A DNA stretch of 39,345 nucleotides from Tannerellaceae bacterium. Lineage in GTDB: Bacteria > Bacteroidota > Bacteroidia > Bacteroidales > Tannerellaceae. Positions within the stretch are counted from its first letter, which is position 1. The number at the start of each line of letters is the position of its first letter. Positions 7,268 to 38,395 of this stretch are shown here, piece after piece. The stretch spans positions 1 through 39,345 of the forward strand of contig JAISBL010000001.1 of assembly GCA_031266215.1 (NCBI GenBank), read 5' to 3'. The notes beneath the pieces were generated by a model. That model saw only the letters and a program-made list of their open reading frames with translations. It was not told where the DNA came from and ran no database searches. A program made the translations under genes and the position numbers.

Positions 7268-8938
7268 TTACTTATACCTGTACAGTGTGATTCGTTGTAT
7301 GCCTGCTCCGGGCATTTTCAGTCCTGTGCCTGAGAATGTGCTGCAATGTGTTTCGTCCCCATTTAGAAGTCTGCCCGGCGTCCAGACACCGTTCCTGAAT
7401 GCGCCTTCGTAAACTTTGTCGATACCCACCAGAGGCAGGTCGCCCGGTGTACGGGGTGCGAAGCGTACGTTCAGGTTCCTGCCCAGAACAATATACTCGT
7501 CGCTGCCAAGTTGAATGATCAGGCCACCGGCGGAGGTTGTTTCGAGCAACTGTGACATTGAAGCGTCGGCTGTGACAATGTAATTTCCAAGTTCGAAGGT
7601 CTGGACAGGCGATTCCTTTTCAACTAATATGCCCCTCATGGTTCCTTTGCCCTGATGCTGCATGATAAGTTCGCTCATTCCGCCCAGAAGTGCGTAAGTT
7701 TCCGCCAGTGGGTCGGCGGCCGGCGCCTGATTTGAGGCCGTAGCCGGCATACGCCTCACACGGTCTACTCCGAAGGGCGAGAACCCCATGATGTTGTGCT
7801 CTCCGATTGCCCAGAGTACGCGGGAAGCCCCTACATCGCCGCCCATTGTTTCGGGTATGAATACCGGATTATCCAGGCGATCGTATTGCCCGACCACTTC
7901 CCTGAAATACGGGATGTAGATGTCGGGCGAAAGGAAGTCGATTGCAGGGGCGGCGCACCTCCACATGTCCATTACCTGCGGGAGCGGCCCTCCGCCGGGG
8001 AAGCGGCCCGTCCAGGGATAGTCGGGGCCTTTGAGCCAGGCGTTCACAAAGAGGGGGATGTCGTGCTCCTTTTTCCCTGCCTGGGCAATGTGTCCGACGT
8101 AGCGGGCGTAGTGGTATGCCATGAACAGCTCTTCGGTGTAAAAAGAGAGCGACCTCCAGTCTTTTACATCAAGCGTGCTTCGCCCGAAAACCTCTTCCCA
8201 GGTGCCGGTGGTTTTTGATCCGTTCTGAGTCCAGACTTTTTGCAGTTCGGGGGTCAGCCTGTTTTTATTCCTGCCCAGCCAGACGGACAGTTCCTGTGGG
8301 ATGGGGCTGTTGAATGCCCTGTTGGCTGCGGGTGAAAAGTCGCGGATGGTGTTGAGGATGCCCATTTCATTCTCGACCTGCACCATAATGATCGTACTGT
8401 TCCTGTCGGCCTCGTGTATGTATTTCATAAAGGCGGCAAAGGCTTTTGCGTCGGCTTTCATGGATTCGTCGGCAAAGGTGGAAAGTATCTCAATGCTGTT
8501 CCCATTATGGTCTACGGCCCGTGGGAAACGTTTGTAGTCTTTTTTCACCCAGGAGGGGATGTAGATGGAGCCGCCGTTCTTCCAACTGGCAAACCAGAGG
8601 ATGACGAGCTTCAGGTCTGACTTCTCCGCTCCTTTTATCATAGCGTCTACGAGGGTGAAGTCAAACCTGCCTTCTTCGGGTTCGATCAATTCCCATGAGA
8701 CCGGGGCGAGGATGGTATTCATGTTCAACTGCTTCATACGGGGCCAGATGTCTTCCATGTATTCAACGTTTGAACAGGACGAGTTATGAAGTTCGCCGGC
8801 CAGCATCAGGTAGGGTTTTCCACCGACGATCAGTTGAGTGGCCGCTCCCTGTTTGCGAAGCGCCGGTAAAGATGACTGGGCTTCTGCTGCAAGGGTGAAG
8901 CCGAGGACAAGGGATAAAAGAATGATAAATTTCGACAT
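7268..8938 (-). CDS. GH35 beta-galactosidase with DUF5597-type C-terminus
   Basis: The product is 556 residues with a signal peptide ([18 protein letters not shown], cut near residue 20), so it is probably periplasmic. The TIM barrel starts at about residue 38 ([16 protein letters not shown]). VQVENEMG carries the likely acid/base Glu191, matching QVENEYG of GH35. VFIPETMG carries the likely nucleophile Glu363. After about residue 400 comes a beta-rich region like DUF5597. This architecture is that of the Cellvibrio japonicus xyloglucan-specific beta-galactosidase (Bgl35A type), which removes galactose from xyloglucan oligosaccharide side chains. Family placement is firm; substrate is inferred from the locus. 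It is separated from GH74 by 678 bases and no exact TAnnTTTG was found upstream, so its promoter is unclear. A terminator follows. Confidence 0.88.
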
Positions 8939-9062
8939 ACGATTCTATAATTTTAGGTACAACATTGTTTTTTATAACCGGTTGGGGTATCACCATCCGG
9001 GATTGTTTTCCAATTCCGGCCGTGAGGATGATAAAAGCAGAATGCACAGGATAATTCCCGCC

Positions 9063-9314
9063 GAAACATACTTCCTTTTCAATGAAACGTATATCCTTTT
9101 CGTCGAAACGCACTTCCTTTTCAATGAAACGTATATCCTTTTCGTCGAAACGTACTTCCTTTTCAGTGAAACGTACTTCCTTTTCGTCGAAACGTACATC
9201 CTTTTCAATGAAACGTACTTCCTTTTCGTCGAAACGTACATCCTTTTCAATGAAACGTACTTCCTTTTCGTCGAAACGCACTTCCTTTTCAATGAAACGT
9301 ATATCCTTTTCAAT
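9063..9314. repeat. Tandem array of twelve 21-base units
   Basis: Twelve contiguous units begin at 9063, 9084, 9105 and so on, with a decayed thirteenth from 9315. Each reads about GAAACGTA then YWTCCTTTTC then a 3-base end that is AAT, GTC or once AGT. AAT and GTC ends mostly alternate, giving a 42-base higher-order repeat. Each junction forms an 11-base dyad: TTTCAATGAAA, TTTCGTCGAAA or TTTCAGTGAAA. The base next to the centre changes together with its partner, so all twelve dyads stay intact. There are no spacers, so it is not CRISPR. In frame it would encode a repeated heptad such as EVRFDEK or KYVSLKR, but there is no sign that it is translated. Confidence 0.95.
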
Positions 9315-9578
9315 GAAAATACTGTACGGATTTGCAGGTCACCTTCCACATTCTTACCACAGGATACTTTTCTTCCAGTAATCCATTCACATATACACTT
9401 TTCCATAATCTTAAGACTACCGGGACCAATAGCAGATTAATAACCGGGTAAGGAGTTATACCACCCTTTCGCCCTGATCCTTTTTCTTCTTTGAGGTATG
9501 CCGGCAACATACTCATCCTGTCTACTTTTTTATTCGTTGTATCCTGCGGCAAAAAGACTGTTTTCACTCCTTATACGA

Positions 9579-9609
9579 CCGCTCAGCCGGGGGTGCGCCG
9601 ACTGAGCGG
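9579..9609 (-). terminator. Strong stem-loop after the GH74 stop
   Basis: On the minus strand CCGCTCAG pairs with CTGAGCGG and the stem extends inward by TCGG/CCGG. It begins 7 bases after the GH74 stop. No T-run follows directly; a run of five T lies about 30 bases on. It may stabilise or end the HTCS-GH3-GH74 transcript. Confidence 0.5.
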
Positions 9610-9616
9610 CCGGGGA

Positions 9617-11878
9617 TCACTTTACAGGGTCTGCATACAGGATGCCACGGCCATGAGTGCCTACGTAAACACGGCCGTATAGTTTGGGATCACCCGTGAT
9701 ATGCAGTACCAGACCGTACTGGTGCGCCTCATCGTTGATCCTTGTCCACGACCGTGCAACATCGTCGGAGCGGAAAAACCCGTATACGCCGTTGACAATC
9801 CCTATCATATATAAAGCCGGATAATCACCGGTACTGCCTTTCCCGAAACCAAAGGCCAACATCCGGCGCACCTGGTCGAGCCTGATGAGAGGCTCCCCCG
9901 GCAGGCGGCGGTAGAGACCGTCGTAGTCTGCGATCCAGAGTTCGCCCTCGCGGCCCGGTACGGAATAGACGCGGTCCTGCCCGCCCCGGCTGTCACCCCT
10001 GCCTCCGTATCGCTGCGGTAGCGGGGGTAAAACAGTATCGGCCGAGAAATGCTCTCCCCCGTCGCGGCTCTCATATAATACGCCCGACTGCCTGTCCAGT
10101 CCATAAAAACGCAGTGGATCGACGCGGTCGGCTACAACGCGGATATTTGGCGCTATGCCTTCACTGGGTTGCCAGCCGGCGCCTTTGTCATGGGTAAAGA
10201 AAGCAGGCATGCGGTTGGGAGTCCATATCCATGTACGCCCGTCGGAGGAGACGGCTATGTGTCCGTTGGATACCCGTTCGCCGGGCGGCAGCGTCAGTGG
10301 CATCAGCCAGGTCTGGCCGCCGTCTTCCGAATAGGCTATCGGTTTGCCTCCGGGATGATGCCCCGATACGGTTCCTACACGCACTACCATTTGTGGGTTA
10401 TCTTCAGCCCCCGCCACACCGTTGGTATTACCGAAGTACGGATTGGCATGGCTTCCCGAAGGGGCGGGTTTATCCAGGTCAAAGTGAGTAAAGCCTCCGT
10501 AATCGCCGATGGCTGAAATAAGCCGGGCCCCTTCCCCTGCGGGACTGTACAACTCCAGAGGTACGGTCTCTTCTATGCCTGTGCTCATTATCTGCCAGCG
10601 GACGGGAGCGTTGCCTTTGCCTGCATCGGCAAGATTAAAGGTTTCCCATCCTCCGTAGCCGGTAGTGAACATGGCGTGGTTGGGGTCGAAGGGGTCTATT
10701 TCGATGTCAAACATCCAGTGCAACGGTGTGAACTCTGTATACGGGGCGAGGGAGTAATCCATCTTAACCTCTCCGCCGAAGACGGAACTCCAGGTCATTC
10801 CGCCATCTGTCGAGCGGAAAATATCATCTTCGGTATACCTGCCCGGCAGCGGGCGTCCAAAGGTGCTGACGATAAGATGGCCGGGATTTGCGGCGTCAAC
10901 CGAAACAGAGGCGTAGCCGAAGGTAAGGCCTCCGGCAGGGTCAGGTTTAACGGGCGAGATATCTTCCCACCCGCCGGTAAGCGTATGATATTTCCAGACC
11001 GCCCCGTTTTCCATACGCATCGGGCCGGGATTTGTGCCGTAGGTTATGTACAATGCCCCGTCTTTTGCCAGGCAGGCCTGGGTGGGGCGGTAAGCTTCGG
11101 GCTGATCGGGCAGCGCTTCCCAGCTTAGCCCCGCGTCGCGGCTCACAAAGAGGTTGCTCCGGTTCATCAGCGAGACGCCTGCATAGATGGTACGGCAACC
11201 TTCACCGGCCAGGGCTGTGGCCGGATCAAAAACCACAAAAACGATCCCGCTACCCTGGTTACGGGGGAAAGAACCGGCGGGCGAAGGTTCGCTTACATCG
11301 GGGAAAGAGGCGACACGCTGCCAGCTCATGCCCCTGTCGGCGCTGCGCCACAGTCCGTCCAGCCGCGTACCCATATAAATAATGTCAGTATTCGCAGGGT
11401 CCACCATCATACGCTCTCCGTTGCCGCGTCCGTTCTCGTTACCCCCCATTGTAAAGGGCATGTCTACGCGCCTGAACGTACGTCCTCCGTCGCGCGAGAT
11501 CATGACGGCACCGTTGGAAGAGCGTGTATACGTTCCGCAGGACAGGTATACGCCAAGAGGGTCGGCGGGGTCTACGGCTATGCTTTCAACACCCACCAGG
11601 TTACTGTCTTCGTAGGTTATCCAGTCGAGCATCGACACCCACTGGCGCTGTTCTTTGTCCCAGCGGTAAGCGCCTCCCATATCCGTACGGCAATAACGCA
11701 CATCAGGCGCATTGGGGTGAAAGACGATACCGTCGACAAACCCGCCTCCTGTTATACGGACGCTTTTCCATACATGGGGCTCTGAACGGACGGGAAGCTG
11801 ACCGGAGGCCTGCTCCGCGCATCCGCCCGTAAACAGGGCTGTCAATATACATGCAAGGATATATATCTGCACCTTCAT
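9617..11878 (-). CDS. GH74 endo-xyloglucanase, predicted lipoprotein
   Basis: The product is 753 residues and shows repeated beta-propeller signatures (SRDGGRTF, SADRGMSW, SRDAGLSW, STDGGMTW, SEDGGQTW). These are the Asp-box-like turns of the two seven-bladed propellers of GH74. TDMGGAYRW carries Asp66, the likely general base, and GDYGGF carries Asp459, the likely general acid of this inverting family. Most characterised GH74 enzymes cut the beta-1,4-glucan backbone of xyloglucan. The N-terminus has a hydrophobic stretch ending TGGC with Cys20, a plausible lipobox, so the enzyme may sit on the outer membrane. The start is 3 bases after the GH3 stop, so the two are co-transcribed with the HTCS. 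Endo- versus exo-action cannot be told from sequence. GH74 is unusual in Bacteroidota xyloglucan loci, which normally use GH5_4. Confidence 0.9.
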   Translation of the reverse strand: MKVQIYILACILTALFTGGCAEQASGQLPVRSEPHVWKSVRITGGGFVDGIVFHPNAPDVRYCRTDMGGAYRWDKEQRQWVSMLDWITYEDSNLVGVESIAVDPADPLGVYLSCGTYTRSSNGAVMISRDGGRTFRRVDMPFTMGGNENGRGNGERMMVDPANTDIIYMGTRLDGLWRSADRGMSWQRVASFPDVSEPSPAGSFPRNQGSGIVFVVFDPATALAGEGCRTIYAGVSLMNRSNLFVSRDAGLSWEALPDQPEAYRPTQACLAKDGALYITYGTNPGPMRMENGAVWKYHTLTGGWEDISPVKPDPAGGLTFGYASVSVDAANPGHLIVSTFGRPLPGRYTEDDIFRSTDGGMTWSSVFGGEVKMDYSLAPYTEFTPLHWMFDIEIDPFDPNHAMFTTGYGGWETFNLADAGKGNAPVRWQIMSTGIEETVPLELYSPAGEGARLISAIGDYGGFTHFDLDKPAPSGSHANPYFGNTNGVAGAEDNPQMVVRVGTVSGHHPGGKPIAYSEDGGQTWLMPLTLPPGERVSNGHIAVSSDGRTWIWTPNRMPAFFTHDKGAGWQPSEGIAPNIRVVADRVDPLRFYGLDRQSGVLYESRDGGEHFSADTVLPPLPQRYGGRGDSRGGQDRVYSVPGREGELWIADYDGLYRRLPGEPLIRLDQVRRMLAFGFGKGSTGDYPALYMIGIVNGVYGFFRSDDVARSWTRINDEAHQYGLVLHITGDPKLYGRVYVGTHGRGILYADPVK

Positions 11879-11881
11879 GAC

Positions 11882-14047
11882 TTACTTCACCGTGAGGTTT
11901 TTCTCCAGACGGATGTCGGCTGACGAGGCTCCTATCTGTATGCGGATGTTGCCGGGTTCTACAACGAAACGATGCTGCGCTTCGTCCCACCAGGCTATGT
12001 CTTCCGCCTTAAGGGGTATCTGTACCGTTGCCTGGGAACCCTGCGGGATATTGATGCGTTTGAAGCCTTTGAGTTGCTTAAGGGGGCGTTCTATCTTTGA
12101 ATTAAGGTATTTTACGTACAGTTGGACTACCTCGTCTCCGCCCGTTCGCCCGGTATTCTTTATATCTACCGAGACGGAGATTTCACCGTCACGCTCCAGT
12201 GCAGTCTGACTGAACCGCAGGTTGGAATAGGCGAAGGAAGTGTAGCTCAGTCCGTAACCAAAGGGGTAAAGCGGTTTTTCCTGTGAATACATGTAGGTGC
12301 GTCCGTGGCTGAGGTCGTAGTCCATCATTGGAGGCAGTTGCTCGATGGAAGCAGGCCATGTCTGGTTGGTGCGTCCGGCCGGATTGTAGAGGCCGAAGAT
12401 CACGTCGGCCAGTCCGTTGCCCAGTTCCTGACTGGAGTGCGTGACGTGCAGTATGGCCGGCAGGTGCTCTTCAGACCAGTTGACGGCAAAGGGAAAACTG
12501 CTGTTCACCACCAGAACTGTATTGGGATTGACGGCAAAGACCACCCTTGCCAGCTCTTCCTGTTCGATGGATAGCGCACGGCGGTCAACAGCTTCGCGCC
12601 CGTCGCTCATCACACGCGCCTCGGCCCAGCCGGCGTTAGGCCCTCCGTTGGGATGGTTTCCTACGACTACAATGGCTACGTCGGCATCACGCGCGGCCGT
12701 AACGGCTGCGTCGGCCCGGTTGGCCGGAGAGTAAACGACCTCCACATTAGCCCCGACGGCATTGCGGATGCCTTCAACGATAGAGACGGAGTAGGGAGAC
12801 GAACCGCTATACCAGTCGGGTATCACCTCGTTGGCATAAGGGCCTACGACGGCTATCTTCCTGATCTTATCCGCCTGCAACGGCAACAGATTGCGGTTGT
12901 TCCTGAGCAGGACGACAGATTTGGCCGTCACTTCGCGCACGAAGTCTTTAGTCACCTTAAGCGTCCAGGGGTCGATGGTATCTTTGACGCCTATCATGGC
13001 GTAAGGATCGTTGTCGTCAAGGAACCCCAGCTTCAGGGCGACGAAGAAGTTGCCCCTGACAGCCTTGTCGATGTCCTTTTCGGTAAGCAGTCCAAGCCGG
13101 AGGGCTTCCTGTACGTGAGGCTTACTGACGTCGAGGAACTGTGTGATACCGGCTTTGATACTGGCTGCCGCTCCCTCCGCCATAGTCGGGTAGGCTTTAT
13201 GATCGGCCACGAGCATACCCAGGGCGCCCCCGTCAGTACAGATGATGCCGTTATTCCCCCACTCGTTCACCGTGACGCCGGTCAGAAGGTCGTAGTTGGA
13301 GGTCATAGGCTGACCGTTCACTGCATTGTAGGAAGCCATGTAGGCCCTGGACCCGCCTTCGACAATACCTTTGTAGAACGTATAGCCATAGTACTCACGG
13401 AAGAGGCGTTCGCTGATGTCTGAGGAGGAGGAGTCCCTGCCGTCTTCGTTGCTGTTGGCCAGGAAGTGCTTCATCAGTGAAGCCGTCTGCCAGTAGCCGG
13501 GGTTCTCGCCCTGCAATCCTTTGACAAAGGCTACGGTCAGGCGGGATACAAGAAAGGCGTCTTCGCCGAAAGACTCCTCGGTGCGCCCCCAGCGCGGGTC
13601 GCGGGCCAGGTCTGCATTAGGCGCACGCATAACGAGGGAGCCGCGCAGGTATTTGGGGCTCTGGAAGTAGTAGCGATCCTCGTAACCTTCCATAGCAGCG
13701 ACCTTACGCACCAGTTCTTCGTCCCACGTCTCGCCTAATCCATAGGCCTGGGGGAAGATCGTTGACGGCGCCGGATTGCGCGATCCCCAGTTGGACGGGC
13801 CTCCGTAGGCCAGACCGTGCAATCCCTCGGCATGGCCGCAGTTGCGGATACCAAGACGTGGAACTCCGAACTGAGTGGAGAGGGCGTTAATCTTTTCTTC
13901 GAGGGTCATCAGACTGATGAGATTGTCAAGACGTTCGTCAGCAGACAGCCGTACATCCCTGAAGGGATAAGCAGCCTGCTGGGCTTCTGCGCCGAAGGGG
14001 CATACAAACCCGGCGCATACGATAATGAGACATAATAATCTGGACAT
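11882..14047 (-). CDS. GH3 beta-glucosidase (or beta-xylosidase)
   Basis: The product is 721 residues with a signal peptide (LLCLIIVCAGFVCPFGAEAQ), so it is probably periplasmic. The N-terminal barrel has PRWGRTEESFGED, the substrate-binding KHF motif (SLMKHFLANSNEDGRD, about 190-205) and ICTDGGALGM, in which Asp272 is the likely nucleophile. The second alpha/beta domain follows from about residue 370. A fibronectin-III-like domain closes the protein (GRTGGDEVVQLYVKY). Retaining GH3 enzymes release glucose or xylose from non-reducing ends. In this locus the expected job is glucose release from trimmed xyloglucan oligosaccharides; beta-xylosidase activity is the main alternative. The gene is 11 bases after the HTCS and 3 bases before GH74. 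Confidence 0.9.
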   Translation of the reverse strand: MSRLLCLIIVCAGFVCPFGAEAQQAAYPFRDVRLSADERLDNLISLMTLEEKINALSTQFGVPRLGIRNCGHAEGLHGLAYGGPSNWGSRNPAPSTIFPQAYGLGETWDEELVRKVAAMEGYEDRYYFQSPKYLRGSLVMRAPNADLARDPRWGRTEESFGEDAFLVSRLTVAFVKGLQGENPGYWQTASLMKHFLANSNEDGRDSSSSDISERLFREYYGYTFYKGIVEGGSRAYMASYNAVNGQPMTSNYDLLTGVTVNEWGNNGIICTDGGALGMLVADHKAYPTMAEGAAASIKAGITQFLDVSKPHVQEALRLGLLTEKDIDKAVRGNFFVALKLGFLDDNDPYAMIGVKDTIDPWTLKVTKDFVREVTAKSVVLLRNNRNLLPLQADKIRKIAVVGPYANEVIPDWYSGSSPYSVSIVEGIRNAVGANVEVVYSPANRADAAVTAARDADVAIVVVGNHPNGGPNAGWAEARVMSDGREAVDRRALSIEQEELARVVFAVNPNTVLVVNSSFPFAVNWSEEHLPAILHVTHSSQELGNGLADVIFGLYNPAGRTNQTWPASIEQLPPMMDYDLSHGRTYMYSQEKPLYPFGYGLSYTSFAYSNLRFSQTALERDGEISVSVDIKNTGRTGGDEVVQLYVKYLNSKIERPLKQLKGFKRINIPQGSQATVQIPLKAEDIAWWDEAQHRFVVEPGNIRIQIGASSADIRLEKNLTVK

Positions 14048-14058
14048 AGCGGATAACT

Positions 14059-18310: not shown

Positions 18311-18521
18311 CTTACCAGTCCTTTGGTAAGCGCCTTACCAAGCCCCCGGTAAACACCTTACCAGGCGTCAGGCAGACACCCTGCCGGGCGTCGGGCGCGA
18401 ACCGGTCGTGTTCGTGGGCACGAACATGCCGTGTTCGTGGGTTAGAACAAGCTGTGTTCGTGGGCACGAACAAGCCGTGTTCGTGGCTTAGAACATGCCA
18501 TGTTCGGGAACGGGAATATCC
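18311..18521. repeat. Tandem array of 23-base dyad units, two subtypes
   Basis: Units at 18311, 18334, 18357 and 18380 belong to one subtype. The first is a perfect 7-base-arm dyad (CTTACCAGTCCTTTGGTAAG); the arms decay toward the fourth. After 5 extra bases a second subtype runs from 18408, 18431, 18454 and 18477, with a shortened fifth copy at 18500. Copies one and three contain the perfect dyad GTTCGTGGGCACGAAC; copies two and four keep only the outer GTTC and GAAC, so the units alternate as a 46-base dimer. GTTC and GAAC half-sites fall at 18410, 18422, 18433, 18445, 18456, 18468, 18479, 18491 and 18502, spaced 11 or 12 bases, about one helical turn. There are no spacers, so it is not CRISPR. 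Confidence 0.92.
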
Positions 18522-23857: not shown

Positions 23858-23875
23858 ATCTCTTCTGTTCCCCAC

Positions 23876-28889: not shown

Positions 28890-28919
28890 TCTTCGAGAAT
28901 CTCTGTGTCTTCGCGAATC
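28890..28919. repeat. Direct repeat of TCTTCGNGAATC in the GH9 leader
   Basis: The 12-base motif occurs at 28890-28901 and 28908-28919, starts 18 bases apart. The cores are TTCGAGAA and the perfect palindrome TTCGCGAA. They lie 44-73 bases before the GH9 start and could be an operator pair. Confidence 0.5.
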
Positions 28920-29189: not shown

Positions 29190-29209
29190 CACCGGTCAAT
29201 ATACCGGTG
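29190..29209. promoter_or_regulatory. Inverted repeat CACCGGT-N6-ACCGGTG
   Basis: Perfect 7-base arms are separated by 6 bases (CAATAT), with one-helical-turn symmetry typical of a dimer binding site. It lies about 270 bases before susC. No T-run follows, so a terminator is unlikely. An operator role is inference. Confidence 0.45.
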
Positions 29210-29232
29210 TTATATGTTTGAGCGTAAAAAGT

Positions 29233-29274
29233 GAAAACCCACTTAGGTGTTTTTCATTACGTACATGGGTTTTC
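29233..29274. promoter_or_regulatory. Inverted repeat GAAAACCCA / TGGGTTTTC
   Basis: Perfect 9-base arms at 29233-29241 and 29266-29274 are separated by 24 bases. It may be an RNA stem or paired protein half-sites upstream of susC. Function is not known. Confidence 0.45.
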
Positions 29275-29441
29275 TATCTTCTACATTATGGATTTCAATT
29301 TCTATATGTTTTTAAGGCTACAGGGGTTATTACGAATTAGAGACAAAACACCCCCATTAAATTTACTTTATACACCCTGTCACTCCACGATTCTACCTAC
29401 CCTATGAAACATTCATCCTATAATGCTTTATGAGATCACTG

Positions 29442-29449
29442 TATATTTG
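29442..29449 (+). promoter_or_regulatory. Putative -7 promoter element of susC
   Basis: TATATTTG matches TAnnTTTG and lies 32 bases before the susC ATG. TTTA sits 11 bases upstream of it. The same TTTA-N11-TATATTTG arrangement occurs before the 1213-residue GH2 gene (38431-38453, minus strand). No canonical -33 TTTG is seen. Confidence 0.5.
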
Positions 29450-29481
29450 ATGCCTATCAGAAACTTTAAATAATATTAAGC

Positions 29482-32400
29482 ATGAAAAAACACATTCGAA
29501 TTTTACTGTTTATTAAAACAACGGGATTTGCTTTTCTATATTGTCTGTATTGTCCAACAACAATGATGGCATCAGACAATAGTGCAAATCCGGAAGTAAC
29601 GGTAACCCAACAAGAGTCGAAACAAATTACGGGTACCATCACCGACGAAAACGGAGGACCAATCGTTGGTGCAAATATCGTGATAGCGGGTACCGCTACA
29701 GGTGTGATCAGCGACGTGGACGGGAAGTTCCAGCTTAGTGTACGGGAGGGAGCTGAAGTAAGGATTTCTTATATTGGCTACCTTCCGCAAACAATCAGAA
29801 TCGGAACACGTAACAATTATCCCATCGTACTCAGGGAAGATACCGAGACGCTTGATGAAGTAGTAGTAGTAGGCTATGGAACTATGAAGAAAAGTGATAT
29901 CTCCGGCTCTGTTGCATCGGTTAATCAGGAAGAAATGATGAAACGTAATCCCATCAATATCACCCAGGGATTACAGGGTGCAGCAGCCGGGGTAATGGTG
30001 ACGCGGACTTCAGGTGACCCCTCAGGAGAAGCTACAATCCGTATCCGTGGAGTAGCCACGGTAAATGGGTCTGCCGACCCGCTTTATGTGGTTGACGGAG
30101 TACAGGTAGGAACCAGCATAGACTTCATCAATCCGGCTGATGTGGAAAGTATTGAGATACTTAAAGACGCCTCTGCAACGGCCATTTATGGCGCACGCGG
30201 CGCTAATGGCGTTATTATGGTAACCACAAAAAGAGGAGAACAGGGAAAAACTAATGTTAATTTCTCCGCAAACTTCGGAATACAAAACCTGCAGGGGAGC
30301 TTAGATGTAGCCGACGCCGAACTGTTTGCTTACTCTGTACGCCAGGGACGCGCCAATGATGGCGCAATGATCACCAATAAGGCATTCGGAGAAGAGTATA
30401 TCGGCAAACTCCGTTCCATCGACTGGCAGGACGCGATGACCCAGACTGCTTTCAGACAGAATTATATGTTATCTGTCTCAGGTGGAACTGAGAAAACACA
30501 GTCTACATTCTCTGTCGGATATCTGGCTAATGAAGGGATTGTTTTGGATACCAGATATTCCCGTCTGACCGCACGGGCCAGTACCGTTTATAAAGTGAAA
30601 GATTTAATTGAAGTCGGCGGCAATCTCTCTTTCCAGCACAATGAAAGAAATATCACAGGGAACCTCCGCAATTATGCGATTCTGACTCCGACTATGGACT
30701 ATGTAGACGATGTTACCGGAGAATTTATCAGCCACAATTATAACGACATGGCGGCAGGTGGCACCTATTATGCTTTTATGCAGGTGTCCGGTGAAGGCGA
30801 CATCCAGAAAGGACAGGATAACCCCTATGCAGCACGGAAGGAGGCAGATAAAACTCCTGATTATTCCAATACCATACTTGCCAGCGCTTATCTGGATTTA
30901 AAGCTATTCAAAGGATTGTCTTTCCGTACGCTGGGGTCTTACCGTCTCGGCACTTCTGATGGGAGCAACTTTAATACAGTCAATTATCGTGTTCCTTCTT
31001 CTGCGGCCTACAACAGTTTTAATATGAATCAGAACCAGTCAAACGATATTGCACTGGAAAGTTATTTTACTTATAACTGGAAAACTGATCTTCACAATCT
31101 GAATCTGGTGGCCGGTAATACGGTAAGTAACAGTTGGAGGCACTCGGTAAATGCAAGCGCGAACAACTTTATGTCTGACACTTATCGGGATATCTCCCTG
31201 ACCAGTGATCAGGCTTCCCGTACCGGCGGTGGCTCATACAGTCTCAAAACACGGTATATTTCATTCTACGGACGTGCCATGTATTCACTGGCGGATCGCT
31301 ATATCCTGACAGCTACAGTGCGTCGTGACGGTTCTTCTAATTTTGGTGCCGGAAACCGTTGGGGTGTTTTCCCTTCCGCCGCCCTGGCCTGGCGTGTATC
31401 CGAAGAAGATTTTATTAAGAGCCTGGATCTTTTCAGTAACTTGAAATTACGTGTAGGCTGGGGACAAACAGGTAATGCCGGAAATACAACAAACCTTTCG
31501 GTAGCCCAACTTTCTTCCAACCGCGTTTCTTACGACTGGGGTTCTTTGAACGGATCGACCGGCGATTATACTAAGGAGCCCGGGATTGCACAATTAAAGG
31601 AAATAGATACCAACCTGAAATGGGAGACTAATACGCAGACAAATATAGGCCTTGATATCGGCTTGCTTAATAACAGCCTGAATATTACAATGGATTATTT
31701 TATCCGCGACTCTAAAGATCTGCTCCTGTACCGCAATATGCGTCCTTCAACCGGATATAACGAAGTATACACCAATGCCGGACATATCCAGAATAAAGGC
31801 TTTGAACTTAATGTCGCCTATAATAAACGATTGGGCGATTGGATGTTTGGGGCTGTGCTGACCGGAGCTACCCTCAAAAATAAAGCAATTGAAGTAGGAG
31901 ATCCTATTTATCATGAGAATTTTGATTCGGGTGATGAATGGGACGATCACTCTGTAACCATGAATGGAGACGCAGTAGGTTCCTATTACGGTTACGTGGT
32001 TGAAGGAATTTTCCAGTCTCAGGAAGAAGTAGATGCGTTAAACGCACAGGTATCCGAATTAACAAACGGCGAAATTAGGGTATACCAGTTGCAGGCCACT
32101 ACAGCCGGAGATTATAAATTCAAAGATGTGAATGGCGACGGATATATTGATGGATATGACCGGACTGTTCTTGGAAACGGTTTCCCTACTTTAAATTACG
32201 GATTAACTCTTACGGGCGGATATAAAAACTTTGATGCAATGGTTTACATGTATGGTGTGGCCGGGATGGAAATTTATTCTTATGCTGCTATGAAGATGAC
32301 ACAATTATATAAGACATCCGGCGGTATCCAGAACACTCTGCAAGAGTATATCAATAATGCCTGGACTCCGCAAAACAAAAGCACGACCTATACCCGGCTG

Positions 32401-32697
32401 ACAATTGTAGACAGGAACCATAATAAACGGGCATCCGATGCTTATGTTAAAAACGGTGATTTCCTGAAAATGGCGAATATCCAGATAGGATACAATTTCC
32501 CTAAATCGGTACTGACTCCGTTAAAAATGGAAAGCGCCCGTATTTTTGCTTCTGTTGAGAATCTCCTCTGTATCTCAGGATACAATAAATATGGTGATCC
32601 GGAAGTAGGAAACACCAATGTATTACGCACCGGTTTCGATAGCGGGCGTTATCCTTATCCGAGGACCTTTAATTTTGGTTTAAGTGTACAATTTTAA
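29482..32697 (+). CDS. susC: SusC/RagA-family TonB-dependent outer-membrane transporter
   Basis: The product is 1071 residues. After a signal sequence (to about residue 31) comes a carboxypeptidase-D-regulatory-like domain (about 49-118, ITGTITDENGGPIVGANIVI). The SusC signature TLDEVVVVGYGT follows at about 123-134, then the plug domain (SGSVASVNQEE to VIMVTTKRGE) and a long 22-strand barrel ending in FNFGLSVQF with the aromatic C-terminus of outer-membrane barrels. It imports oligosaccharides with energy from TonB, in complex with SusD. Xyloglucan oligosaccharide is the inferred cargo. Base composition is clearly lower in GC than the enzyme genes: one line of its sequence (30601-30660) has 25 of 60 G+C, against 39 of 60 in a GH31 line (21481-21540). 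The symbol names the family, not an ortholog. Confidence 0.95.
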   Translation: MKKHIRILLFIKTTGFAFLYCLYCPTTMMASDNSANPEVTVTQQESKQITGTITDENGGPIVGANIVIAGTATGVISDVDGKFQLSVREGAEVRISYIGYLPQTIRIGTRNNYPIVLREDTETLDEVVVVGYGTMKKSDISGSVASVNQEEMMKRNPINITQGLQGAAAGVMVTRTSGDPSGEATIRIRGVATVNGSADPLYVVDGVQVGTSIDFINPADVESIEILKDASATAIYGARGANGVIMVTTKRGEQGKTNVNFSANFGIQNLQGSLDVADAELFAYSVRQGRANDGAMITNKAFGEEYIGKLRSIDWQDAMTQTAFRQNYMLSVSGGTEKTQSTFSVGYLANEGIVLDTRYSRLTARASTVYKVKDLIEVGGNLSFQHNERNITGNLRNYAILTPTMDYVDDVTGEFISHNYNDMAAGGTYYAFMQVSGEGDIQKGQDNPYAARKEADKTPDYSNTILASAYLDLKLFKGLSFRTLGSYRLGTSDGSNFNTVNYRVPSSAAYNSFNMNQNQSNDIALESYFTYNWKTDLHNLNLVAGNTVSNSWRHSVNASANNFMSDTYRDISLTSDQASRTGGGSYSLKTRYISFYGRAMYSLADRYILTATVRRDGSSNFGAGNRWGVFPSAALAWRVSEEDFIKSLDLFSNLKLRVGWGQTGNAGNTTNLSVAQLSSNRVSYDWGSLNGSTGDYTKEPGIAQLKEIDTNLKWETNTQTNIGLDIGLLNNSLNITMDYFIRDSKDLLLYRNMRPSTGYNEVYTNAGHIQNKGFELNVAYNKRLGDWMFGAVLTGATLKNKAIEVGDPIYHENFDSGDEWDDHSVTMNGDAVGSYYGYVVEGIFQSQEEVDALNAQVSELTNGEIRVYQLQATTAGDYKFKDVNGDGYIDGYDRTVLGNGFPTLNYGLTLTGGYKNFDAMVYMYGVAGMEIYSYAAMKMTQLYKTSGGIQNTLQEYINNAWTPQNKSTTYTRLTIVDRNHNKRASDAYVKNGDFLKMANIQIGYNFPKSVLTPLKMESARIFASVENLLCISGYNKYGDPEVGNTNVLRTGFDSGRYPYPRTFNFGLSVQF

Positions 32698-32822
32698 TCA
32701 TTTTGTCTAACGAAAAAATGAATGACTCATATGAAACGAAGCATGAAAACGCTGTTCACGCCAAAGGCGATAGATAAAACGTACTGCGAGTTCCATACCA
32801 CCATTAAAAAAAAATTATTCGT

Positions 32823-34523
32823 ATGAAAAAGACATATTTATATACATTGGCAGGATTGCTGTTATTGACGACCAACTCCTGTAGCGACTATCTGGAAGTA
32901 GATCATTATGATATTCTTCCCGGCGACATGATGTTTGATAGCGAAGAAAATGCAAAAGCCGGCCTGGCCGGATGCTACGATACTTTTTACCCGACAAAGC
33001 AGAATGCACCCACTGATCTGGCTATGTGGGGCTTTAAACCTCAGTTTATGCTGGCCAATCACCCCACAATGGATACCCAGGCCAGCGGTTGGGATAAAAC
33101 CTATTGTACGCAGGACTGGACAGCGAAAAGCGGTGAATTTGAACAGGTATGGATCGGACATTATACCGCTATCTCCCGCTGTAATATCTTTCTGGCGGGT
33201 CTTAACGATATGGAAGATTTCCTGTTTGAAGCAGGAGAGCAAACGAAAAAAGAATTAGAAGCCCAGGCGCGCGCCATCCGTGCGTGGAATTATCTGAATT
33301 TAGCAAGAAACTTCGGCCGCATCCCAATGCTGATGACAGGAGAAACCTATTCCAATACGCCGTCAAAACCACGTCCCGACAACGAAGATGGCACATGGGA
33401 TCAGATTGTGGAAGACCTGGTTTATGCTGCCGGCATACTGGACTGGACCCCTGCCAATGGAGAATACGGACGTATCACAAAAGGCTTCTGCCTGAGCTAT
33501 CAGGCAATCGCCAGAATGTATCAGGAAAGATATGATGAAGCAAAAGCTTTATTCAAACAGGTAATCGACAGTAAAGTTTATTCATTGCTGCCTTGTTACA
33601 GCTATCTGTTTGATCCCGAAAGAGCCTGGACAGATGAAGACGTATTTGCAGTGGTGATGTGGTCTGATTGGGGTAATAATATGGGAGGAACCAATGGATG
33701 GGGTCCACAGGAAGATCATTACATGTTTGTATCTTACAGCACTGCATCCATGGAATATAATGGCTGGGGATCCCTTTTTATATCATGGGAATGTTACTAC
33801 TCATTCGAAGAAGGAGATCGCCGCAGAAAGGCATCCATGGTAGCACTGGGAGAAACTAATCCATGGACCGGCCAGACCATTGGCGCCGTAAGCGCTCCGG
33901 CCGTAAAAACAGGCGCCGAGTTTATGCCTAATATCTCCAGTGTAAAATACTGGCGTAAAGATTGTGATTACTGGACAACGATTAACCAGCCGTTTACCAT
34001 ACGTACACTGCGCTATGCGGAAGTATTATTGGATTATGCAGAATGCTGTTTCCGTACCGGAGAAGCTGCAACCGGTTGGGAGGCGGTAAAGCTGGTACGT
34101 GAACGTGCTTTTGGGAATCAGGAAGTGACGCTCAACGATCCTCAATATCCGATCCCAATGCAAACAGAAGCAGTTGTAGTTCCTGATGCTAACACATATT
34201 ATACACAGTATAAAGCGGACAAAGGTTATGCGGCTGAGTCCTGGCTGATTGCAGTCAACATGGAACGCCGTCATGAATTCAACGCAGAATATAGTTTCTT
34301 CTATGACCTGAAACGCTCTGGCCTTCTGGATGAATTTATTGAAAATGAATATCCTAAAAATGTTGGTGTCGACCCAGCCGTCAATCCTGACGGAGCCCTG
34401 AATGACTGGCATATCTACCGCAAATTTGATCATAATCCGAACAAAATGTTATTCCCGATTCCTGAAAGGGAAATCATGACAAATGACGCAATCAATGAAG
34501 AAGATCAGAATCCTGGCTACTAA
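32823..34523 (+). CDS. susD: SusD/RagB-family surface glycan-binding lipoprotein
   Basis: The product is 566 residues with a lipoprotein signal (LLLLTTNSCSDYLEVDH, Cys20). The TPR-like helices of the SusD fold are visible as ARAIRAWNYLNLARNFGRIPM and LRYAEVLLDYAECCFRTG. The C-terminus PIPEREIMTND..NPGY is the standard SusD ending. It forms the lid of the SusC channel and binds glycan at the cell surface. Trp-rich stretches (AMWGFKPQF, WSDWGNNMGGTNGWGPQ) could form an aromatic binding platform for a glucan chain; that is inference. The gene is 125 bases after susC. A strong terminator follows, so the transcript ends here and no second surface binding protein is encoded downstream. Confidence 0.95.
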   Translation: MKKTYLYTLAGLLLLTTNSCSDYLEVDHYDILPGDMMFDSEENAKAGLAGCYDTFYPTKQNAPTDLAMWGFKPQFMLANHPTMDTQASGWDKTYCTQDWTAKSGEFEQVWIGHYTAISRCNIFLAGLNDMEDFLFEAGEQTKKELEAQARAIRAWNYLNLARNFGRIPMLMTGETYSNTPSKPRPDNEDGTWDQIVEDLVYAAGILDWTPANGEYGRITKGFCLSYQAIARMYQERYDEAKALFKQVIDSKVYSLLPCYSYLFDPERAWTDEDVFAVVMWSDWGNNMGGTNGWGPQEDHYMFVSYSTASMEYNGWGSLFISWECYYSFEEGDRRRKASMVALGETNPWTGQTIGAVSAPAVKTGAEFMPNISSVKYWRKDCDYWTTINQPFTIRTLRYAEVLLDYAECCFRTGEAATGWEAVKLVRERAFGNQEVTLNDPQYPIPMQTEAVVVPDANTYYTQYKADKGYAAESWLIAVNMERRHEFNAEYSFFYDLKRSGLLDEFIENEYPKNVGVDPAVNPDGALNDWHIYRKFDHNPNKMLFPIPEREIMTNDAINEEDQNPGY

Positions 34524-34567
34524 TGAATAAGCAGGTTTATTTTTAAAACAGTTGAATCAGAGAAACC

Positions 34568-34603
34568 AGCCCTGAGTCTTTACAACAGGACTCAGGGCTT
34601 TTC
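34568..34603 (+). terminator. Rho-independent terminator after susD
   Basis: A perfect 11-base stem AGCCCTGAGTC / GACTCAGGGCT with a 10-base loop is followed by TTTC, 45 bases after the susD stop. Confidence 0.8.
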
Positions 34604-34697
34604 AATTGAGCGCTTTTGTGTTTAAGCGATCAGACTTCTTCGGAAAATAGTATAAGAAAATCACTTGTAGCCCGGATCAGAGAGGGGGATAAAGAGA

Positions 34698-34728
34698 GAG
34701 GCTGCCACACGTGGTACGGGGCAGCCTC
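34698..34728. terminator. Second hairpin, probable terminator of the convergent GH2
   Basis: GAGGCTGCC (34698-34706) pairs with GGCAGCCTC (34720-34728). Read on the minus strand it lies 26 bases after the GH2 stop and is followed by a pyrimidine-rich stretch (TCTCTTT). On the plus strand TTTGCTTTT follows, so it may work in both directions. Confidence 0.65.
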
Positions 34729-34753
34729 TTTGCTTTTCAGAAATTGATTACTC

Positions 34754-37700
34754 TCAGATATTGAAGCCGGTGACCTCTACACCGGGAGTTTCGCCACGGG
34801 TGTCTCTGTTTTGCAGACGCATGGTGATGGTCTTTTCTTCGCCGGGCATCAGGGCGATGTAGTTGTCGCTGAAGAATACGGGAAGGATACGGGCGGAGGT
34901 CTTATCGCCTGTTACCTGGAGCCTGACCATGAGGGCGGGCGTCGGTGTGTCGTTCTTCAGGGTGGTGGTAAGCAACCATTCTTCGCCGGAACGGACGACC
35001 GTGGAGGTAGTCGAAAGGGTTACCTTCGGCATCTGGTGGAGCGACTGGTAGTTACCGTCTTCCTTGCCCCTGACGTAGAAGTTATCTGATATGACTTCGC
35101 CGTTTTCGGTGAGCGTCAGTTTGATAAAGTATGTGTCGGAAAGCGTTTCGGGATATTCCAGATTGAAGGCTTTAACGGTTGAGTCTTCGGGTGCGGAGAT
35201 GACTACCTCTTTCTCCCACTGTACGGAGCCGTCCTGATTGATGAGCTGGGCTTTGGCCGTGAGGCCGGTGCGATCCCATGCATGGTAGTTGACCACTTCT
35301 ATGAAGTCCTGCTTCTTATAGTCGTATACCGGATTCCACTGTATGTGTATGGGTTCGGAGGCTTTCTTGCAGCCGAAGTATGCGCCTGTCGGGTCAAAGT
35401 AATAGTCGTAGGTCTGCCATACCATCGAGGGCCATGCCGGATGGCTCATCCAGAGTAACATCCCGCGGCGATATTCGCTACGTCCTTCGAAGATGGCCCG
35501 GTAGCCGTTGTAGTTGATCCACTGCGCCCACTGGGCGAACTGTCCGGCGTCTCTGGGAGGGCCGAAGGCTTTCTCTATCATGGCGTTGAAAGATGCGGCC
35601 GACTGTGCGCTGGCGAGCGTGTAGTCATGCAGTCCGTACTGGCTGTTCTGCGGCCAGAGGACTTCAGGCGGGAGTGTCTGTCGGAGGCTTTCGTAGTTCA
35701 TCACGTTCGGCATGCCCCGTTCGCTGTGGAACTTGTCGTTGCCGTACAGCAGGAAGTAATCCCGTGGCGGCAGGGCCCTGTACGGACCTCCCCCGCTTAC
35801 TACGCCCATGGCTGAGTTTGAGATGTAGTGTATGCCGGGATGGTTGGCGGGTACAATGCTGCGGATGGCGTCGTCGAGTATCTGCGGTGGATTGCCTTCG
35901 TTCCTTCCCACGTATATGCCTATGGACGGGTGGTTGCGGATGCGTTTGACGAAATCTTCGGCGTTGGCGATGAACAGGTCGTTATCGTACGGGTTGGGCC
36001 CGTCCACGGGGTTAGCCAGCCAGAAGTCCTGCCATACCATGACGCCGTGGCGGTCGCAGGCTTCGTAGAACTCTTCGTCGCCGATCTGCCCTACCCAGTT
36101 GCGTATCATGGTGAAGTTCATATCTGCATGGTATGCGACGGCTATGTCATATTCGCGCCCGCGATAGTTGAGGTTAGACTCGCCAAAGCCCCAGTTGCCT
36201 CCGAAGCCGATGAACCGCCGGCCGTTGACAAAGAGGCTGAGCGTCTGGTTGTCTTCGTTGAACGTCATCTGACGGACACCTGACCTGAAGGCGACCTCGT
36301 CGGAAGCCTTCCCGTCTATGTCGAAGCTGAGCTTAACGTCGTAGAGGTAAGGCTCGCCGTATCCCTTTGGCCACCACAGGCGTGGAGACCGGAGGAGGAG
36401 CGAGGGCGTGGTGGACGGGTCGAGGCTTACGACTTTCGTCTCCGACGCTTCAAGCGTCACGTCCTGTTCAAACGCTGTTTCGCCGTAAAGGCCTTTGAGC
36501 GTGCCCGAGACGGGGGCGGCAGTCTGGTTCCTGAGCGTGACTTCTACGAACAGTCTGGCCGAGGTGGTGTCGGGCAGCGGCAGTTCGGCGCGTATGAAGG
36601 GGTCTTCGATTGCGACGGAGCCGGTGCCGGTGATGAAGACATCGTTCCAGATGCCGATGTTACGGCCGCGTATGGTAGGTATCCAGTCCCATCCGACGGT
36701 GGCGTGGAAGGTAGGATTGTCGGCTCCCAGAATACCGCCGTTCTGGTCTGTACTGATGGCGGTCTGTTCCTTGATGGCTCCGGGGTGTGCGTTTTTGATG
36801 ATCTCAACGGCCAGTACGTTGGTCTTACCGGCTCCGGCCAGAAGAGATGTGATGTCGAACCTGCCACGCATAAAGGCCCCCTCGATACGTCCGGCCTTCT
36901 GTCCGTTGACGTATACGTTGGCCTTCCAGTTGATGCCGTCGAAGTTGAGGAAGAAGCTCTGTCCGCCGAAACCGGCAGGCAGGGTGAACTCGTTGCGATA
37001 CCAGAAGTCTGAGTTGAAGAACGATTCGGATATCTGAAGCTGGTTGTCGCCATAGTTGGGATCAGGCAGGGCGCCTATCCTCATGTAGCTCGTCAGAACA
37101 GTTCCGGGCACGGTAGCCGGTATCCAGCCTTCGGCGCTGAAGCCTGACTGTGATATTTCTTCGCCCGAAGCTGCCACCTCCGAAGAACGTTGCAGCGTCC
37201 ATGAGCCTCCGGAGAGTGTGAGGCGGTTTCCGTCGGGCGCGGGCGCTTTCACGGGACGCGGGGCGAGGCCGCCTTTTCCCCACACTTCAAGTTCGCTCAG
37301 GATGTAAGGAGTGTTGTTTTCGGACTCCCTCATGAGTACTCTCACGTACCGGCCTTTGGCCGTGCCGGAGAGGGTGATGGCGTCGGTCTTTTCGCTCCCG
37401 CCCGGAAGTGGGGCTACGTCGTTCCATGCCCTGGCGTCGTCCGATACCTGTATCGCTCCGTCAGTGGCTTTATTGAGCCAGTGGAGGTTGACCTTGTCGA
37501 AGGATGCCGTGGCTCCGAGGTCTACATAGACCCATTCTTCGCCCGCGCCGGCGCTCTCCCATGCGCTGTTGAAGTATTGTGAGGGAGTGATGGTGAGCAA
37601 CTCTCCGGCGTTGTAGAAGTCCCAGTCGCTCAGGGCCCATTCCTTTGCAGACGGCATCCTGAGGCTGATCTTATAATAGGAGTAGTTTACCGCCTGGTCG

Positions 37701-38395
37701 AGAGTGAAGACCTGGTTTATGATGGTAGACGGCTCCGGCGGGGAGAAGCTGAACGCAAAAGAGGGCCTGGGGGCGTCGGGGTCTACGGGTGGCATCCTGA
37801 AGCCTCCGAAGCCTCCGCGGCGCTGGGGTTCCGCACCTATGCGTCCCGGCCCCTTTTCTTCTCCGAGCGGTTGCCACTGTACGCCGTCGGTCGATCCGTA
37901 AGCAGCCACCTCGTATCCGCGCGGCTTGGCGGGGTCAAAGGTTACGCTCCCGCGGAGGACGATCTTGTCGACCGGGAGATCCATGTTGTTCATCGCCAGT
38001 TGCAGGAAGACGTCGTCGCCGCTCATCCGGTAGCGGGAGTCGCTTTTACCGTCGAAGAACCATTCACGTTCGTTCTTTTTCAATTCCCCATCCTGTGTGG
38101 AGACGTTAATAGTAGCAGGCAGGCCGGCGGATATAATACCGTCGGTGGCCAGTTGCGCCGTCAGGTTATAGTCGTAGCTCGAAGAGTGGTAGGCGCTCCT
38201 TAGCTTAGCCAGGTTGCGGTAGTTGCCGCCGGCTGGTACAAGCTCAGGGGCGAAATCTTCGGCAGGGTCTCCGGGATAAGCGCCTATCCCGCGCGTGTAG
38301 TAGTCTGAACGGCTTGCCGGCGAATCGCATCCCGGCAAAAAGAGGCATAAGCACGTTATACCTGTGATTAAGGGCATTAATCGTGTTGTTTTCAT
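34754..38395 (-). CDS. Large GH2 lipoprotein with discoidin-like N-terminus
   Basis: The product is 1213 residues. LCLFLPGCDS gives a good lipobox (Cys23). Residues about 55-380 look like an F5/8 (discoidin) carbohydrate-binding fold: it starts NLAKLRSAYHSSSYDYN and ends ILSELEVWGKGG, with a long insert including a Gly/Arg/Pro-rich stretch near residues 190-210. The GH2 jelly-roll follows (WTLQ..WIPATVPGTVLTSY), then Ig-like domains and the barrel. GRNEGNPP carries the likely acid/base Glu833 and FHSERGMPN the likely nucleophile Glu892. The GRNEGNPP and WQDFW motifs resemble the beta-mannosidase/exo-glucosaminidase branch of GH2 rather than classical beta-galactosidases. Its substrate in this locus is unclear. 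It is convergent with susD and has its own putative promoter. Confidence 0.85.
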   Translation of the reverse strand: MKTTRLMPLITGITCLCLFLPGCDSPASRSDYYTRGIGAYPGDPAEDFAPELVPAGGNYRNLAKLRSAYHSSSYDYNLTAQLATDGIISAGLPATINVSTQDGELKKNEREWFFDGKSDSRYRMSGDDVFLQLAMNNMDLPVDKIVLRGSVTFDPAKPRGYEVAAYGSTDGVQWQPLGEEKGPGRIGAEPQRRGGFGGFRMPPVDPDAPRPSFAFSFSPPEPSTIINQVFTLDQAVNYSYYKISLRMPSAKEWALSDWDFYNAGELLTITPSQYFNSAWESAGAGEEWVYVDLGATASFDKVNLHWLNKATDGAIQVSDDARAWNDVAPLPGGSEKTDAITLSGTAKGRYVRVLMRESENNTPYILSELEVWGKGGLAPRPVKAPAPDGNRLTLSGGSWTLQRSSEVAASGEEISQSGFSAEGWIPATVPGTVLTSYMRIGALPDPNYGDNQLQISESFFNSDFWYRNEFTLPAGFGGQSFFLNFDGINWKANVYVNGQKAGRIEGAFMRGRFDITSLLAGAGKTNVLAVEIIKNAHPGAIKEQTAISTDQNGGILGADNPTFHATVGWDWIPTIRGRNIGIWNDVFITGTGSVAIEDPFIRAELPLPDTTSARLFVEVTLRNQTAAPVSGTLKGLYGETAFEQDVTLEASETKVVSLDPSTTPSLLLRSPRLWWPKGYGEPYLYDVKLSFDIDGKASDEVAFRSGVRQMTFNEDNQTLSLFVNGRRFIGFGGNWGFGESNLNYRGREYDIAVAYHADMNFTMIRNWVGQIGDEEFYEACDRHGVMVWQDFWLANPVDGPNPYDNDLFIANAEDFVKRIRNHPSIGIYVGRNEGNPPQILDDAIRSIVPANHPGIHYISNSAMGVVSGGGPYRALPPRDYFLLYGNDKFHSERGMPNVMNYESLRQTLPPEVLWPQNSQYGLHDYTLASAQSAASFNAMIEKAFGPPRDAGQFAQWAQWINYNGYRAIFEGRSEYRRGMLLWMSHPAWPSMVWQTYDYYFDPTGAYFGCKKASEPIHIQWNPVYDYKKQDFIEVVNYHAWDRTGLTAKAQLINQDGSVQWEKEVVISAPEDSTVKAFNLEYPETLSDTYFIKLTLTENGEVISDNFYVRGKEDGNYQSLHQMPKVTLSTTSTVVRSGEEWLLTTTLKNDTPTPALMVRLQVTGDKTSARILPVFFSDNYIALMPGEEKTITMRLQNRDTRGETPGVEVTGFNI

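Follow-up and report, generated by a model that had tools for sequence, protein, structure and literature searches.

A predicted xyloglucan utilization locus of a Tannerellaceae bacterium, with GH74 in the place of GH5 and in an apparent operon with a hybrid sensor/regulator

The stretch of DNA analysed here (the window) comprises 39,345 nucleotides of a Tannerellaceae bacterium (GenBank assembly GCA_031266215.1, contig JAISBL010000001.1, positions 1 to 39,345; contig C113 of genome G000 in our labels). Its source assembly is 2.70 Mb long and 86.9% complete; by its placement the genome shares a genus with Parabacteroides sp. PH5-46. A first-pass annotation had proposed that the window holds a xyloglucan-type polysaccharide utilization locus (PUL) made of a hybrid two-component system (HTCS), SusC/D and the glycoside hydrolases (GH) GH9, GH31 (two), GH3, GH2, GH35 and GH74. 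The whole set was recovered, at the coordinates below, from the list of open reading frames (ORFs), Pfam and sequence comparisons with the PDB, and the functions given throughout are predictions from sequence.

7268-8938, minus strand: GH35 (DUF5597 type; Pfam/PDB), Trp at the position of Bxy_22780 W288, probably peripheral
8990-9406: ORF beside GH35, mostly a 21-bp tandem repeat, no Pfam match
9062-9318: tandem repeat array between GH35 and GH74, 21/42 bp, about 12 copies of 21 bp
9617-11878, minus strand: GH74, candidate endo-xyloglucanase, 753 aa, lipobox-like FTGGC, D66 and D459
11882-14047, minus strand: GH3, of the beta-glucosidase, beta-xylosidase or isoprimeverose-releasing type
14059-18159, minus strand: HTCS hybrid sensor/regulator (Reg_prop, Y_Y_Y, HisKA, HATPase, receiver, AraC-type HTH)
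18353-18506: tandem repeats of 23/46 bp between HTCS and GH2, unit around CGTGTTCGTGGGCACGAACAAGC
18531-21017, minus strand: GH2, beta-galactosidase-like (GalB-like), likeliest xyloglucan galactosidase
21023-23875, minus strand: PA14-GH31, predicted alpha-xylosidase, BoGH31A-like (Pfam/PDB)
23876-26266, minus strand: second GH31, 5F7C/YicI-like, candidate alpha-xylosidase (PDB comparison)
26312-28846, minus strand: GH9, divergent, with N-terminal extension and CelD_N domain (Pfam 37.5 bits; GGWHDAGD kept)
29482-32697, plus strand: SusC-like TonB-dependent transporter (Pfam)
32823-34523, plus strand: SusD-like glycan-binding protein, lipobox-like N-terminus (Pfam/PDB)
34754-38395, minus strand: second GH2, exo-beta-glucosaminidase-like, F5/8 type C domain, convergent with SusD

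Most of the enzymes fall into two minus-strand groups. The first is transcribed in the order GH9, YicI-like GH31, PA14-GH31, GH2, with gaps of 45, 0 and 5 bp. The second follows 371 bp on and starts with the HTCS, after which come GH3 and GH74 (gaps of 11 and 3 bp), and GH35 lies 678 bp after GH74. SusC and SusD are on the plus strand, divergent from GH9 over 635 bp, and the GH2 at 34754-38395 is probably not part of the xyloglucan unit.

The identity of the GH74 protein is central. Pfam gives only short sortilin/BNR matches on it, and the first-pass annotation had itself named another propeller family as what could overturn its proposal; a sortilin-type propeller is ruled out by the full-length alignment with solved xyloglucanases. 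Residues 29-751 align to 7KN8 (575.7 bits, E = 1.4e-171), with 6p2m and 2cn2 next, and 17 of the 18 solved matches at E <= 0.001 lie at E <= 3.8e-82, the 18th (3b7f) being weak and partial (9.6e-12). All 17 carry names of the xyloglucanase/cellulase type (xyloglucanase, xyloglucan hydrolase, cellulase, cellulose-binding, oligoxyloglucan cellobiohydrolase and, for 6p2l, BNR-repeat hydrolase). D66, within RTDxGGAYRW, and D459, directly after Gly458, both align with Asp residues of 7KN8 that we take to be its catalytic pair. Other positions were mapped through a study of the Xanthomonas enzyme, which names 7KN8 once and whose seven numbered residues fit the 7KN8 chain at offset 36 (PMC8245568): G465, the Gly marking acceptance of X or G at subsite -1, corresponds to Gly458 of the window, W396 at +1 to Trp388 and Y128 at -3 to Tyr117, and the Arg residues at +2/+3 (R354, R356, R510, R513) become G, P, S and H. 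Gly458, D459 and Trp388 are invariant in 44 of 44 GH74 rows (the window and 43 of the 44 loci of the scan described below, L017 left out), and none of the 43 rows that cover the position of D66 has lost it. At the loop aligned with the adjacent Trp pair of 6p2m, which we read as the +3/+5 platform, the window enzyme has no counterpart (STFGRPLPGRYTEDD). It also shows no long insertion relative to 7kn8 and 6p2m between about residues 350 and 388, where an exo-loop would sit. We infer an endo-dissociative xyloglucanase.

The first proposal of a xyloglucan-type PUL in which GH74 is present and GH5 missing is supported. The locus gives no PF00150 (GH5) match, and it has a predicted alpha-xylosidase of the BoGH31A type. 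A search of the whole genome with PF00150 at E <= 0.01 likewise gave nothing, and absence of GH5 is likely but not proven because that genome is 86.9% complete. Of the 18 genomes of the genus, 12 match PF00150 at E <= 0.001, 11 of them above the curated cut-off; G000, G001, G004, G008, G011 and G017 do not, and several of these six are incomplete. The four genus genomes with a close GH74 have no match (G000, G004), one (G009) and five (G006), and 19 of 20 genomes searched among those with a GH74 locus (L011 and L013 left out) have a match somewhere, bearing in mind that PF00150 does not separate GH5 subfamilies. The statement that GH74 is used "instead of GH5_4" is thus true for the locus and for the window's genome, most GH74 carriers having a GH5 elsewhere. 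GH9 is, however, a candidate endo-enzyme as well, and the Bacteroides ovatus locus too has a surface GH9 (PMC4967831).

A scan with the GH74 returned 44 loci. In the flanks examined, many of which are short, SusC is present at 4 and HTCS at 7 of the 44 loci, one of these HTCS lying on the opposite strand. Across the order, 12 of 393 genomes have a GH74 match at E <= 1e-100. In PH5-46 (L025/G006) a single strand carries HTCS-GH74, then SusC-SusD-GH9, a gene of no assigned family, PA14-GH31, GH2 and GH9; in P. faecis JCM 18682 the stretch examined runs HTCS-GH74-SusC-SusD-GH9-GH9 and ends there, and MS495-74 has HTCS-GH74-GH43, a reverse ORF, then SusC-SusD-GH9. The Tannerellaceae metagenome-assembled genome (MAG) Ncb351_bin13 (L010/G004) has its genes split between a contig with GH3-GH74 and a second with SusC-SusD-PA14-GH31-GH2; MAG Nc350_bin136 (L012/G009) has HTCS-GH74 and SusC-SusD-GH31b-PA14-GH31 on separate contigs, GH31b being the second GH31; and in G053 a single contig bears SusD accompanied by fragmented GH9 and GH31b. 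From their labels, these strains and MAGs are presumably of termite or cockroach origin. In a co-occurrence sample of 100 relatives, own genome included, GH74 was found at E <= 1e-30 in 9 (5 at at least 63% identity) and SusD at E <= 1e-60 in 14 (7 at at least 66% identity). All five genomes with a close GH74 have a close SusD, two have the SusD only (G045, with two stops in the gene, and G016, with an intact one) and 93 have neither; the Fisher p of 2.8e-7 overstates the association, since the identity cut-offs were set after the lists were seen and the genomes are related.

What is new is that HTCS and GH74 share one apparent operon in 7 of the 8 rows of the GH74 clade to which a maximum-likelihood tree of 56 rows assigns the window (support 100/99). 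The HTCS of these seven precedes GH74 on its strand, with GH3 in between in the window; row L010, the eighth, opens inside GH3 at a contig end. No HTCS is labelled upstream in the 16-row sister clade (mostly Bacteroidaceae and Prevotellaceae), L023 and L029 having less than 1 kb upstream and not being judgeable. The gaps between HTCS and GH74 are 14 (L012), 16 (L011), 17 (L025), 22 (L013) and 45 bp (L014), the start in L015 being uncertain. A looser arrangement occurs in G082 and G215, which belong to another family and fall outside the clade: the HTCS lies 126-128 bp before GH74, and PA14-GH31 and GH2 follow, in G082 with GH3 too. As a control we took the 17 Y_Y_Y matches of PH5-46, kept as HTCS the 14 with frames over 1280 aa (other domains being assumed) and left out three with shorter frames. 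An ORF of at least 150 aa on the same strand follows within 50 bp after only one of these 14, that of the GH74 locus; for four more (L134, L140, L142, L144) the distance is 104-171 bp, and in the other nine no such ORF comes first. In G000 the GH74 locus is again the only one, of three, with an ORF within 50 bp. The tight HTCS-GH74 pairing is therefore unusual against this background, which rests on first-ATG starts in few genomes, and the spacing in G082 and G215 is ordinary.

Among the side-chain enzymes, PA14-GH31 scores 1249 bits to BoGH31A (query residues 28-945), 929.5 to 7kmp and 874 to CjXyl31A. The second GH31 is closest to 5f7c (448 bits) and YicI (388-390 bits); in 5 of the 44 loci (L018, L022, L042, L043, L049) a homologue scoring over 1000 bits is found no more than 68 bp from GH74 and on its strand, which ties the two together. 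The GH3 may free isoprimeverose, which the YicI-like GH31 could then cleave; YicI acts on isoprimeverose. The GH2 at 18531-21017 reaches 666 bits to beta-galactosidases and is GalB-like at 866 bits, just under the 900-bit cut-off, and its homologues adjoin PA14-GH31 in PH5-46, G004, G082 and G215. The best match of GH35 is Bxy_22780 (398 bits). The window's NAWL aligns with NAAL of XacGalD, so that a Trp occupies the W288 position and the Ala of the CjBgl35A/XacGalD type is lacking there. Wild-type Bxy_22780, a beta-1,2-galactosidase, is reported to have no detectable activity on xyloglucan oligosaccharides, and the Trp-to-Ala change by itself to be far from sufficient for a change of specificity (PMC11739564), which makes the Trp a hint rather than proof. 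In L063-L065 of PH5-46 no ORF of 200 aa or more matches GH35, though a GH42-type ORF adjoins the locus. Given the Bxy_22780-like sequence and this missing match, GH35 appears peripheral and GH2 the likelier galactosidase. GH9 keeps GGWHDAGD and, by eye, a late Glu in the rows that reach there, and is a further candidate endo-enzyme. As a side observation, G000 combines nine GH9-family matches with no PF00150 match.

We consider it highly probable, from family membership, conserved residues and a gene order that is itself conserved, that the window holds a Bacteroidales xyloglucan utilization locus in which GH74, perhaps with GH9, cuts the backbone, SusC/SusD import the products and the HTCS switches on the rest; substrate, location, induction and the order of the steps are predicted. 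Low-level basal expression of the HTCS-GH3-GH74 group would supply GH74 beyond the inner membrane, in this strain probably on the cell surface. There it would cut the backbone in a dissociative endo mode, GH9 perhaps helping, the oligosaccharides would enter through SusC/SusD, and an oligosaccharide bound by the HTCS would switch on the rest of the locus. As to location, the first-pass annotation had called GH74 a predicted lipoprotein. This fits the window's N-terminus, where the signal ends in a lipobox-like FTGGC with an unusual Thr at -3, and lipobox-like ends are also seen by eye in L010 (AAGC), L012 (GVAC) and L011 (GTAC); a simple lipobox pattern flagged only the window and L010 in the clade, and the L015 N-terminus is not judgeable. 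It fits neither of the two named Parabacteroides isolates, and the lipobox is not conserved.

Several points weigh against this picture. In L013, L014 and L025 (3 of 8 clade rows, by eye) no lipobox stands at the end of the hydrophobic stretch of GH74, L014 and L025 having an early Cys. For SusD the PDB offers nine relatives at E <= 0.001, all of them weak (best 2.3e-13), and the SusD of the B. ovatus xyloglucan locus is not one of the nine. The nearest relatives of GH3 are beta-xylosidases (306 and 303 bits), ahead of a beta-glucosidase (283), isoprimeverose-producing enzymes (263 and 245) and BoGH3B (184), and a Pfam comparison of 17 ORFs of the window yielded neither a GH43 nor a GH95 domain. 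A Flavobacterium SusCD cluster that bears a GH74 is reported not to be induced by xyloglucan in strain OSR005 (PMC11892949).

The missing lipoboxes suit a different division of labour, in which the surface endo-xyloglucanase proper would be GH9, and GH74 an auxiliary or periplasmic enzyme trimming imported oligosaccharides. GH9 directly follows SusC-SusD in PH5-46, P. faecis and MS495-74, and a Xanthomonas GH74 deletion still depolymerised xyloglucan, its authors naming a GH9 and two GH5 as possible substitutes (PMC8245568). However, the window GH9 is divergent and by eye has no lipobox at its signal end, whereas the window GH74 has a lipobox-like signal, and with nine GH9-family matches in the genome GH9 is less specific to xyloglucan; we regard this alternative as doubtful, if the most serious. 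The weak SusD relatives and the uninduced Flavobacterium cluster, together with the fact that GH9, GH3 and GH2 are not diagnostic, could also mean that the locus targets a mixed or different beta-glucan, xyloglucan being one substrate among others. A BoGH31A-like PA14-GH31 in combination with GH74 is hard to explain without xyloglucan, and a GH31 of either type stands beside GH74 in other lineages (L018, L022, L042, L043, L049, G082, G215), so that a mixed target seems improbable. We think it just as improbable that the genes are a loose neighbourhood (two same-strand groups, a separate SusC/D, an isolated GH35 and GH2) rather than a co-regulated unit: the genes of the window are indeed divided by a switch of strand and by intervals of 371, 635 and 678 bp, and in G009 HTCS-GH74 and SusC-SusD-GH31-GH31 are on different contigs, but the PH5-46 core is a single same-strand run and the GH74 and SusD orthologues co-occur.

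SusC and SusD differ from the rest of the locus in composition. Their G+C content at third codon positions (GC3) is 0.43 and 0.45, against 0.63-0.75 in the other PUL genes of the window and 0.51-0.75 in other SusC fragments of the genome. A horizontal exchange within the genus could produce this, as could codon bias, and we claim neither. Identity of SusC/SusD to PH5-46 (84/86%) exceeds that of HTCS, GH74, GH9, PA14-GH31 and GH2 (56-72%) and of PheT and MetG (75/79%); P. faecis and PH5-46 show no such excess between them (SusC and SusD 72, GH74 71, HTCS 64%), and orthologue GC3 is higher in G009 and G004 (0.55-0.74) and lower in G016 (0.37-0.38), all of which would agree with an exchange. Against it, SusD is 80-88% alike across four genomes of the genus, the fourfold-site difference of 0.58 is about that of MetG (0.59; PheT 0.67), and rpoB/rpoC/tuf-like genes (named by N-terminus) also have GC3 of 0.37-0.43. 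A second SusC-SusD-GH9 cluster lies elsewhere in the genome (L106 7881-16031, G000:C133), scoring 1055, 367 and 1217 bits to the window's proteins. No gene for a surface glycan-binding protein (SGBP) of the SGBP-B kind was met next to SusD, the place where we take it to be in the B. ovatus locus; the next large ORF is the convergent GH2. In PH5-46 a 630-aa gene that may be an SGBP lies between GH9 and GH31 (L091); a 469-aa piece of it has no Pfam match.

The left flank of the locus is housekeeping-like (by Pfam, phenylalanyl-tRNA synthetase beta chain, TACO1/YebC family, Mur-ligase-like, MFS transporter and GHMP kinase). The Bacteroides promoter motif (-33/-7) was not found ahead of the gene groups, its sole match in the window falling inside GH3. 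Related 21-bp arrays of about 12 copies occur at two sites of the genome, in the window (9062-9318) and in L150 (699-959, G000:C83), with a higher period of 42 in one and 63 in the other. Other GH74-like genes were seen in passing: three within about 40 kb in L080 and L081 (G296), together with GH2- and GH31-like genes, and a distant one (33% identity) in L073 (G017, same genus), with SusC 28 bp downstream and an HTCS upstream on the opposite strand, which makes another GH74-like PUL.

The pairing of HTCS and GH74 suggests that the endo-enzyme may be made together with its own sensor, as a scout. The Cellvibrio GH74 has constitutive low-level expression, for which a substrate-sensing role was proposed (PMC5816542), and the HTCS-GH74 pair could be the same sensing logic, hard-wired. 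We put forward tentatively, as a possibility that we lean somewhat against, that in one branch of the Tannerellaceae and their kin the endo-xyloglucanase moved into the sensor operon to form a scout module, basal GH74 making the signal of the co-made HTCS, to which importer and side-chain enzymes would respond; the order of importer and side-chain genes, and even their contig, varies among strains. The pairing makes the scout role proposed for Cellvibrio testable in a culturable host (PMC5816542). The locus also indicates that GH74 can fill the endo-enzyme slot of a xyloglucan PUL in Bacteroidales, named Parabacteroides isolates included, so that substrate prediction requiring GH5_4 would probably miss such loci.

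How does the locus compare with known systems? The open-access literature searched, which did not extend to CAZy and PULDB, mentions GH74 in a SusC/D setting in passing only, as far as the available texts go (PMC11892949, PMC3368933); other passages on the family give no more than its counts, assays on cell walls or findings in other phyla. The Svalbard reindeer rumen fosmid Sc00008 has GH74, susC and susD on one scaffold binned to Prevotellaceae and differs by carrying two GH5 (PMC3368933). Some Flavobacterium SusCD clusters described as "XyGUL-like" (xyloglucan utilization locus, XyGUL) have a GH74 homologue and differ by the presence of GH5_4 (PMC11892949). The likeness to Cellvibrio japonicus first suggested had to be given up. 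That locus has GH31, GH35 and a TonB receptor, like the window, and also GH95, and neither "GH74" nor "SusD" appears in the available text (PMC4285296); the secreted GH74 lies elsewhere and is not up-regulated on xyloglucan (PMC5816542). A Cellvibrio origin of the side-chain enzymes is ruled out: PA14-GH31 is nearest BoGH31A and GH35 nearest Bxy_22780, with Trp versus Ala, both being nearer Bacteroides enzymes than those of C. japonicus. The Xanthomonas XyGUL shares GH74, GH31, GH35 and TonB-dependent transporters, and the window GH74 is closest to 7KN8 and keeps the group I Gly; the window differs by having SusD and HTCS, by lacking the Arg platform, by a GH35 that is not of the Ala type and by no GH95 domain among the ORFs given to Pfam (PMC8245568). 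According to its authors, nothing of similar organisation was in PULDB apart from clusters of two or three genes (PMC8245568). The B. ovatus XyGUL resembles the window in its surface GH9, TonB-dependent transporter, SusD-like protein, GH2, PA14-GH31 and GH3; in the window GH74 replaces GH5, a second GH31 and GH35 are added, and no SGBP-B beside SusD and no GH43 are matched (PMC4967831). In the window the HTCS shares an apparent operon with GH74. The PH5-46 and P. faecis JCM 18682 loci are like the window in core genes, with close proteins and HTCS before GH74. They differ in that the core genes share one strand, GH74 comes after the HTCS without an intervening GH3 and has no lipobox, and a further GH9 is present; PH5-46 also has no GH31b or GH35 match among the ORFs seen, and the P. 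faecis stretch ends in its second GH9. The locus is thus not unique: PH5-46, P. faecis and MS495-74 share its core, and by its gene content it is a predicted variant of a known system, the xyloglucan PUL, common to a small group of Bacteroidales in which the pair of sensor and putative endo-enzyme is conserved.

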